Positions 15,976 through 18,525 of a DNA stretch of 49,267 nt are shown here, piece by piece. The first letter of the stretch is position 1, and each line of letters starts with the position of its first letter. This DNA is from Candidatus Woesearchaeota archaeon (GTDB lineage Archaea > Nanobdellota > Nanobdellia > SCGC-AAA011-G17 > JAGVZF01), in NCBI GenBank assembly GCA_018302785.1, contig JAGVZF010000014.1:1-49267 (forward strand). Direction: 5' to 3'. The position numbers and the translations under genes were made by a program. The notes under the pieces were generated by a model. It did not search any database, had not been told where the DNA came from, and saw only the letters and a program-made list of their open reading frames with translations.

Positions 15976-16048
15976 GATATCTCACAAACTGATAACTTTT
16001 ATAAAGATTGTTGTATGATACGTCTATTATCTTCATATTAGGCCTAGC

Positions 16049-16146
16049 TTGCTGAGCTATTCTGCCATCAGAGTTCGAGTTGTCAAGGTTGTTGTTGCCA
16101 TTAAGGTCGTTGTTGTAGTTGTTGCCAAGATAGAGCAAACGCCCGA
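16049..16146 (-). repeat. Template-repeat-like segment of a DGR (candidate)
   Basis: GC-rich patch (about 46% over 16041-16160 in a roughly 30% GC genome). On the minus strand it is a series of AAC codons; the frame reads NNYNNDLNGNNNLDNSNSDG followed by RIA. About ten of twenty codons are AAC or AAT, the composition expected of a DGR template repeat. A 31-bp core (16058-16088) aligns with 16437-16467 in the neighbouring gene. Of its ten minus-strand adenines six differ, while only two of 21 other bases differ. The left part aligns poorly, so it is a relative rather than a cognate template. No reverse transcriptase is in the window. A TTG-initiated 62-codon frame runs through it, but its unrelated tail overlaps rfcS; I do not call it a gene. 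Confidence 0.5.
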
Positions 16147-16292
16147 TTGTAGCCTATTAATTAAATGTAAATCACCACCACTCCATATTTCAATTTTTAA
16201 TTTACTTAATGTTGTGGTTGAATTTTATGACATTTAGACTTATTAGAGTCCATGTGCTATTAATAGGCGTGAAAAAGAAATTAAAGGAATTT

Positions 16293-17153
16293 TTATTGTT
16301 TTCCTTTTAATATTTGTAAGGCTTTTTCTTTTCTTTGGTTAAGCTCATTTAATTGGGTTTCATATTCCCTAGTTATTTCTGTTTGAGCTTTTTGATAGTC
16401 AAAATTTTTCGGCGCGACTGCGTCGCTGACGACGACTACCCGACCATCAGAGTCCGAGACATCAAGGAGGTACCTGTAGGAGTACAAGTCCAGATTCCTG
16501 CTCAAGAACAACCCAGAAAGGCCGTCTTGTCTTGTGTATAAGTGTCTGTTTCCATCACTTTCTAATTTTCTTGGAAGGCCAGTTTCTTCATTTATATCTT
16601 CACTTCTAAAACTACCATCTTTAACTAAGATTTGTGCATAAATTACCTCTGCATCTTCTCTTAATCTAAATGATAAACCATAAGATGAATCTTGATCTGC
16701 TTGTAATTCTAAACCATTTAATGGAATTATTACTGGATATTCTATCTTTGCATTTCTTGCTTTTACTTGTTTATGTAAACTTCTAGATAAATGATCATTG
16801 GGTTGATATGAATCAGCTTCTGATCTTAATACTAAGGATGAGTCTTCATAATGACCTTTTAAGTCTAAAACTCCTAACTTTAGTGTTTTTTCTAAGTTTG
16901 CTTGTGTAGCTGTTCTTAATCCTTCTTGTCTTAGTACTTCATTTACAGCTACAACATAAAATGGATTGCTTCCTTGAATAACTTCATTTTGATAATTTAT
17001 ATTTGAAATATTTGGTAAATTTGGATGTCTAGATCTTACTTCTTGATCTACTTCTCTTCCTAAATCTCCTCTTAAGAAATCTACTTGAGGTATTGCTTTA
17101 GGTACTTCTACTAAAGGTTTTCCTTGAAATTTTGGTAATGATTTTGTTTGCAT
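16293..17153 (-). CDS. Putative DGR variable (target) protein
   Basis: A 286-residue protein without signal peptide or membrane segment. The N-terminal two thirds are mixed alpha/beta with no family I can name; PVIIPLNGLELQADQDSSYG and YGLSFRLREDAEVIYAQIL look like beta-rich ligand-domain strands. Residues about 211-245 (GLSGLFLSRNLDLYSYRYLL followed by DVSDSDGRVVVVS) are encoded by a sharply GC-rich segment with many NAC, NTC and NNC codons, as left by adenine mutagenesis of AAC-rich templates. A charged coiled-coil tail follows (EYETQLNELNQRKEKALQIL). The start is supported by AAAGGAG 9 bp upstream, a promoter and a palindrome. It lies in an accessory island with toxin-antitoxin pairs. Binding of a varying partner is inference. 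Confidence 0.6.
   Translation of the reverse strand: MQTKSLPKFQGKPLVEVPKAIPQVDFLRGDLGREVDQEVRSRHPNLPNISNINYQNEVIQGSNPFYVVAVNEVLRQEGLRTATQANLEKTLKLGVLDLKGHYEDSSLVLRSEADSYQPNDHLSRSLHKQVKARNAKIEYPVIIPLNGLELQADQDSSYGLSFRLREDAEVIYAQILVKDGSFRSEDINEETGLPRKLESDGNRHLYTRQDGLSGLFLSRNLDLYSYRYLLDVSDSDGRVVVVSDAVAPKNFDYQKAQTEITREYETQLNELNQRKEKALQILKGKQ
16420..16526 (-). other. Variable-repeat-like segment inside the 16293-17153 gene
   Basis: About 56% GC over 16411-16530, almost double the flanks of the same gene. The boundaries are abrupt on both sides. Codons such as TTC, AGC, GAC, TAC, TCC, CTC and GTC could all derive from AAC by changes at the adenines only. It shares the SDGR core with the template-like copy at 16049-16146. 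The segment is internal, with 45 or so codons after it, whereas classical variable repeats sit at the very 3' end. Confidence 0.5.
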
Positions 17154-17289: not shown

Positions 17290-17469
17290 ATGGAAGAAAC
17301 AATAACAATAAAGAAAAAAGCAATACAAGACTTAGTTAAGGTTAAGGATGAATTTGATTCGATAATTGAATCTCTAGAATTAATGAGTGACAAGGAATTC
17401 ATGAAGTCTTATAAAAAAGCAAAAGAAGATATTAAAAATAGAGATTTTGTTGAATGGAATGAGCTTTAA
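17290..17469 (+). CDS. Antitoxin of RelE-type pair (59 aa)
   Basis: Short ORF starting MEETITIKKKAIQDLVKVKD and ending EWNEL. Predicted to be mostly helical and acidic toward the C-terminus (KKAKEDIKNRDFVEW), the pattern of small RelB-like antitoxins whose C-terminal helix wraps the toxin. Its stop (TAA at 17467-17469) overlaps the RelE start at 17459 by 11 nt, the standard coupled layout. Identification rests mainly on context and size. An AT-rich palindrome, AATAAA-AACT-TTTATT, lies about 40 bp upstream and may be the autoregulatory site. Confidence 0.75.
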   Translation: MEETITIKKKAIQDLVKVKDEFDSIIESLELMSDKEFMKSYKKAKEDIKNRDFVEWNEL

Positions 17470-17713
17470 AATATTTCCAACTAAAGAATTCTCAAAAGAT
17501 TTTAATAAACTAGATAAACATTTACAAGAAAGAATAAAAAAGAAGATTGAAGAAGTAGCAGAAGATCCTACAAGATATAAGCACCTTAATTATGATTTAA
17601 GTGGCAGCTGTCGGTTATGGATTGGAAAACTGAGAATAATTTTTTCTTATGATTTAGAGAAACAAGAATTTTACTTGGAAAAGATTGTATTTGGGCATAA
17701 ATACCAAGAATGA
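17459..17713 (+). CDS. RelE/ParE-family toxin
   Basis: 84 residues. MSFKIFPTKEFSKDFNKLDK, then the helical hairpin with KKKIEEVAEDPTRYKHL, then LSGSCRLWIGKLRIIFSYDL and KIVFGHKYQE: the typical RelE fold, with the basic/aromatic groups needed for ribosome-dependent mRNA cleavage near the C-terminus (Arg, Tyr, His). The ATG at 17459 is preferred to a TTG at 17447 because it gives the family's normal start. It is paired with the antitoxin at 17290. A DNA-gyrase-type ParE activity cannot be excluded, but RelE is more likely from the GHKY ending. Confidence 0.85.
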   Translation: MSFKIFPTKEFSKDFNKLDKHLQERIKKKIEEVAEDPTRYKHLNYDLSGSCRLWIGKLRIIFSYDLEKQEFYLEKIVFGHKYQE

Positions 17714-17966: not shown

Positions 17967-18167
17967 ATGGTAACTACAATTCAAATTAATGAAAAAACGT
18001 TAAAAGTATTAAAGAAAATTAAAGATGAAACAAGATCATCTTCTTACGATGAAGCTATAAATAAATTAGTTTCACATCAAAACTCCGAATCATTGGCTGG
18101 TTTTCTAGGGAAGAGGCCAATAAAAGAATTGTTGAAAGATTTGAGAGACAAGAATGGCAGATTCTAA
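17967..18167 (+). CDS. vapB: VapB-type antitoxin, ribbon-helix-helix
   Basis: 66 residues. MVTTIQINEKTLKVLKKIKD followed by SSSYDEAINKLVS is a ribbon-helix-helix DNA-binding domain; the C-terminal part (GFLGKRPIKELLKDLRDKNG) is the toxin-wrapping helix. It should neutralise the PIN toxin encoded next and repress the operon. Overlap with vapC is 14 nt. Promoter and a near-palindromic operator are immediately upstream. Confidence 0.87.
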   Translation: MVTTIQINEKTLKVLKKIKDETRSSSYDEAINKLVSHQNSESLAGFLGKRPIKELLKDLRDKNGRF

Positions 18168-18525
18168 GCTTATTGATTCCTCTATATGGATAGATTACTT
18201 TTTTAATGGCAAACATTCTGAATTTATAGATTCTGGAGAACTTCTTTTATTATCGTCTTTGTCTATATTTGAGATTAAAAATAAATTGAAAAAAAGCAAA
18301 GTTGATGATTTTAAAATAGAAAGAAGTCTTGAATTAATTAAGAAAAGAAGTTTAATTATTGAGGTAAACCTTGAAATTGCAGAAAAAGCTGTGGAATTTT
18401 CAATGAAAAATAATTTGTCTATTGTAGACTCACTTATTTATACTTCTGCAATTTTGAACCAAGCTAAACTCTTAACTTTAGATAATGATTTTAGAGGACT
18501 TAAAGATGCTATAGTATTGTCTTAA
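18154..18525 (+). CDS. vapC: VapC toxin, PIN-domain ribonuclease
   Basis: 123 residues with the PIN pattern: LIDSSIWIDYFF (first Asp), LSIFEIKNKLKK (Glu), LSIVDSLIYTSAI (Asp) and LLTLDNDFRGL (last Asp). The four acidic residues bind the metal used to cut RNA, usually tRNA or rRNA. It is translated from an ATG inside the antitoxin gene. It is convergent with a second, unrelated VapBC pair; the two toxins face each other with a gap of 17 bp. Confidence 0.92.
   Translation: MADSKLIDSSIWIDYFFNGKHSEFIDSGELLLLSSLSIFEIKNKLKKSKVDDFKIERSLELIKKRSLIIEVNLEIAEKAVEFSMKNNLSIVDSLIYTSAILNQAKLLTLDNDFRGLKDAIVLS

Follow-up and report, generated by a model that had tools for sequence, protein, structure and literature searches.

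The DGR cassette in the window

The window, a 49,267-nucleotide stretch of DNA, is contig C18 of a Candidatus Woesearchaeota archaeon whose genome assembly comprises 953 kb in 48 contigs (96% complete, 6% contamination). It contains the following features of a diversity-generating retroelement (DGR) and its surroundings:

16293..17153, minus strand: DGR target gene, 286 aa, with homologues that are DGR targets in relatives
16437..16515, minus strand: variable repeat (VR) in the target gene, with its 3' end (IMH) CGGGTA at 16437-16442
16441-16512, minus strand: 72-bp core of the VR, common to a target on contig C39
16414..16434, minus strand: short inverted repeats GCGAC-GCA-GTCGC and CGTCG-TCAG-CGACG, directly after the VR
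16144..16305, minus strand: RT-16 RNA (Rfam RF03019), 77.3 bits
16057..16135, minus strand: template repeat (TR), AAC-rich, with IMH* AGAATAG as its 3' end
16041..16048, minus strand: GCTAGGCC, located where a long-range helix would have its 3' strand; the 5' partner of that strand is missing in the window
15995..16036, minus strand: possible eroded start of a reverse transcriptase (RT), ATGAAGATAATAGACGTATCATACAACAATCTTTATAAAAG, resembling the first codons of the RT on contig C20
15025-15975: RFC small subunit gene, following the possible eroded RT start

The initial annotation had drawn attention to two GC-rich segments and proposed a DGR target gene with a template-like repeat nearby. Both segments are real (46% GC at 16050-16149 and 53% at 16400-16499, in surroundings of roughly 20-35%), and in the 31-bp core that pairs 16058-16088 with 16437-16467 on the minus strand we recovered the reported bias, with changes at 6 of 10 template adenines and 2 of 21 other bases (Fisher p = 0.006). 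An adenine-aware scan of both window strands ranked this pair first after the self-match, with a score of 18.2 and 10.3 for the next; 60 shuffled templates reached a mean of 10.8 and a maximum of 15.8. The best-scoring segment of the pair is 36 bp long and has changes at 8 of 13 adenines and at 2 of 23 other bases, so that TR and VR do not differ by adenines only along their whole length. The window also has no RT beside the TR and the target, the TR being followed by the RFC subunit gene. As a complete DGR, the locus thus fails two tested features, RT adjacency and a whole-length adenine-only match. The IMH/IMH* pair is present, with CGGGTAG in the VR and AGAATAG in the TR, the same as in relatives. 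At the site after the VR, other DGRs of the group have a hairpin with a GAA loop, where the window has 5-bp inverted repeats without that loop.

No Pfam, NCBIfam or PHROG family could be assigned to the target gene. Its AlphaFold model (pLDDT 83) found no match below an E-value of 0.001 in the PDB or in a viral library (best E 0.44 and 0.0067, respectively); the weak matches, all above that threshold, include lectin domains and TaqVP. Comparison across relatives, as had been proposed, identified its homologues as DGR targets. A homologue also occurs in a genome of the same genus (G001:C71, L131), in which we found neither an RT nor an RT-16 RNA.

Other DGR loci in the genome and the origin of the template repeat

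The absence of an RT from the window, already reported from its sequence, was confirmed, and the suggested search of the rest of the genome for a DGR-type RT found two, on contigs C20 (L001) and C4 (L002). Each locus has the canonical order of target, leader RNA, TR and RT, and the RTs carry the motifs LGNLTSQ and YVDD. The C4 RT has an open, intact reading frame, and its best PDB match (3e-44) is 8ub7, which we take to be the RT of Bordetella phage BPP-1. The C20 RT (L001:1272-1390) has a 19-bp tandem duplication, AGCTAGAAAAGGAAAAACA, that shifts the frame near codon 30, the remainder being open. Differences between TR and VR are confined to adenines at both loci, at 15 of 24 adenines and none of 40 other bases over 64 bp in C4, and at 7 of 30 adenines and none of 64 other bases over the matched span in C20. 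The genome apparently has at least one intact DGR, that on C4. Named genomes with relatives of the genome's RT are mostly Candidatus Pacearchaeota, Woesearchaeota and other Nanoarchaeota; no RT relative was found in viral contigs by the patterns used.

On C39, a fourth locus consists of an orphan target whose VR is 88% similar to that of the window over 136 bp; it has neither an RT nor an RT-16 RNA. Between the two VRs, 11 of 72 sites differ; each of these is compatible with a template adenine, 9 have A in one of the copies, and there is no C/T change. Their shared pattern fits no other place in the assembly, which has no template for them within 3 mismatches; among 190 relatives, the C39 VR found diverged homologues only. 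The initial annotation had hedged that the repeat might be a remnant, with the true template and RT elsewhere in the genome. This comes close to our result in that RTs do lie elsewhere, while a template fitting the window VR is missing from the assembly.

The claim that the adjacent repeat is the template of the window VR did not hold. The window TR is C4-type down to 16079 and VR-like beyond. Window and C4 cassette are 94% identical over 82 BLAST-aligned bases and stay closely similar from 16271 to 16079, after which they diverge abruptly: past a shared AACCTTGACAAC, the window TR departs from C4 and resembles the local and C39 VRs, its 3' half matching the C39 VR over 27 bp at 96%. By these alignments the window TR is a mosaic, because of which the left halves of TR and VR do not align, as the initial annotation had also remarked. 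No VR in the assembly fits this TR within 3 mismatches. Relative to C4, about 62 nt are absent between TTTTTC and ACGCC, corresponding to the RNA's 5' hairpin. We considered misassembly of a C4 copy into C18 and rejected it, since about a dozen sites and a 3-nt gap distinguish the two versions of the shared segment.

RT-16 RNA and RT-less cassettes in relatives

The window RNA matches positions 1-158 of the RT-16 model, its 77.3 bits comparing with an Rfam gathering threshold of 50. Its core (16148-16271) is well kept and its 5' hairpin part (16272-16305) is lost; the pairs of the first stem are non-canonical throughout, and a weak alternative fold reaches -4.7 kcal/mol. In the RT-bearing loci that we read, an RT-16 RNA directly precedes the TR. 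Across 190 relatives, RT-16 occurs in 52 genomes, an RT in 53 and both in 49 (Fisher p 7e-37), and in a wider draw the RNA was present in 106 of 378 class members. The family reportedly goes back to Weinberg et al. 2017. A literature text search for RT-16 returned only the Rfam 15 paper, the family's original description lying outside the search.

In relatives, the 5' strand of the 5' hairpin also pairs with a site that follows the TR within a few bases, enclosing both RNA and TR in a long-range helix. Examples are GTCTTGGCA with TGCCAAGAC in C4, ATGTCTTAGTAA with TTGCTAAGACAT in C20, and a helix of 18 pairs in G105. The helix covaries across 45 RT-16 loci, where own partners give a mean pairing score of 20.7 against 14.8 +/- 0.46 for re-dealt partners (z = 12.9, reached by 0 of 20,000 permutations); kinship among the loci may inflate this score, yet C4 and C20, within one genome, have different matching helices. 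The window has lost one strand of the helix, which is absent there.

Defining a cassette as RT-less when no RT follows within 450 nt downstream on the same strand, we counted 17 such cases, the window among them, in the 82 RT-16 RNAs of the 190 relatives; the 17 include one at a contig end and some with an RT near but inverted (G051, G004, G023:C106) or 1.4 kb further on (G028:C13). Eight of the RT-less cassettes have a VR nearby, and their pooled TR/VR differences affect 125 of 204 adenines and 4 of 469 other bases. The alignment score itself favours adenine changes, but the scores of these eight pairs lie between 45 and 73, while shuffled window templates did not exceed 15.8. Three of the four non-adenine changes fall in G042, where no RT was found.

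Diversification of RT-less cassettes in trans looks real from these repeats, and the relatives' undamaged cassettes appear to work with an RT made elsewhere in the genome. Recent loss of an RT could be another source of such adenine-only pairs. The fetched flanks of G044, G076, G017 and G042 contain no RT match, an argument for longer use in trans, although in G017 a few codons of an RT start survive. In another relative (G056:C51, L092), behind a window-like target come an RT-16 RNA and a TR of C20 type, along with the remnant of an RT start; on sequence comparison this is a second case of a template not fitting its neighbour target. In G028:C13, the left half of the TR (L098:770-870) looks partly adenine-mutated, with GTTGCGGTTTCC in place of the AATGCGAATTCC of other TRs, as if mutated cDNA had homed into the template.

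Interpretation of the window locus and relation to known systems

That the window locus is a derived part of the RT-16-type DGR group is well supported. The initial reading as a DGR target with a template gains support from the RT-16 RNA before the TR, the two DGRs elsewhere in the genome and the adenine-only pairs of C4 and C20. We think it likely that the window holds an RT-less, damaged cassette of an RT-16-type archaeal DGR. On this reading, adenine-mutagenic reverse transcription and homing would have produced the VR from a template that C39 shared. Subsequently the window locus would have lost its RT, a C4-type cassette may have recombined with it at the shared AACCTTGACAAC and supplied the present RNA and left TR half, and about 62 nt with the RNA's 5' hairpin were presumably deleted. 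With that hairpin and one helix strand gone, the cassette is probably an inactive, damaged remnant. An RT encoded elsewhere, such as the intact one of C4, could in principle act on it in trans, but nothing in the assembly indicates that the present TR has written any VR. Several observations weigh against this reading: the RNA scores far above the Rfam cut-off and neither TR nor IMH* looks damaged, so the cassette may retain some function; with 96% completeness and 48 contigs, a matching template, a VR or a third RT may be unassembled; and the putative RT start is short enough to be due to chance.

A rival reading is a working non-autonomous cassette, whose RNA and TR the C4 RT would use in trans and whose mosaic TR would be recent and not yet have overwritten the VR. 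The intact C4 RT, the well-kept RNA core and the adenine bias of the eight RT-less cassettes with a nearby VR all fit this, but we consider it unlikely: the 5' hairpin and the long-range helix, present in nearly all other loci read, are missing from the window, and VR and TR have many non-adenine mismatches in the left half. Less probable still is that the VR is part of a third DGR that escaped assembly and from whose template both C18 and C39 are diversified in trans; the C18 TR would then play no part in it. The common backbone of the two VRs and the lack of a matching template in a 96%-complete assembly would be explained, but the VR backbone still has a match in the 3' half of the C18 TR, suggesting that the original template lay at this locus. 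Coincidence, or an ordinary repeat within an unrelated gene, could be argued from the short aligned core (31-36 bp) and its two non-adenine changes; it is refuted by the RT-16 RNA, the IMH/IMH* pair, the cassette homology to C4 and the DGR target homologues, none of which it would lead one to expect, and we give it virtually no credence.

The nearest known systems share some features with the window locus and differ in others. Like the DUSEL4 nanoarchaeal DGRs (PMC4372165), those studied here occur several to a genome, have targets of orphan families and include partial DGRs without an RT; they also share an IMH ending in GGGGT against an IMH* ending in GGAAT and, though not clearly in the window, a short hairpin inside the target gene. 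The DUSEL4 partial DGRs reportedly consist of target, VR and cis elements only, whereas the RT-less window locus keeps its own TR, which is mosaic, and an RT-16 RNA. The leader at 16144-16305 matches the full length of RF03019, a family that precedes the TR in these DGRs; the Rfam consensus has only the local 5' hairpin, to which relatives add the long-range helix from the 5' strand to the site after the TR, and this is the part that the window has lost. With the DGR of Bordetella phage BPP-1 the group shares the RT family, adenine-specific changes, the direction from TR to VR, and an IMH and, less clearly in the window, a hairpin after the VR. Unlike in BPP-1, the loci read showed no Avd gene between target and RT. 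Here the conserved RNA precedes the TR, whereas in the Bordetella phage system a structured RNA trails it (PMC8867640).

The window is ordinary for its DGR group; of more interest is the wider pattern. Whether nanoarchaeal DGR fragments without an RT are fossils or are diversified remotely was left undecided by Paul et al. 2015 (PMC4372165). The near-perfect adenine-only TR/VR pairs in RT-less cassettes of several relatives, each with its own RNA, favour diversification in trans, and the window provides an example of a broken cassette. We tentatively propose, at somewhat short of even odds, that DPANN archaea carry non-autonomous DGR cassettes, made up of a target and a portable module of RT-16 RNA and TR within a long-range helix, that are reverse-transcribed in trans by an RT encoded elsewhere; such modules would recombine or move between targets, leaving templates that are mosaic or non-cognate, of which the window and G056 would be examples. 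The link between RT-16 RNA and DGR templates offers a search handle for templates without a neighbouring RT, which escape surveys centred on the RT. The helix enclosing the TR suggests a testable way in which the RT might recognize its template.

Three of the four DGR targets of the genome have genes of toxin-antitoxin type (ParE-like, PIN, PemK/MazF-like and PIN) nearby, at 17290-17713 and 18154-18525 in the window, at L029:6538-7112 and at L001:2419-3004.
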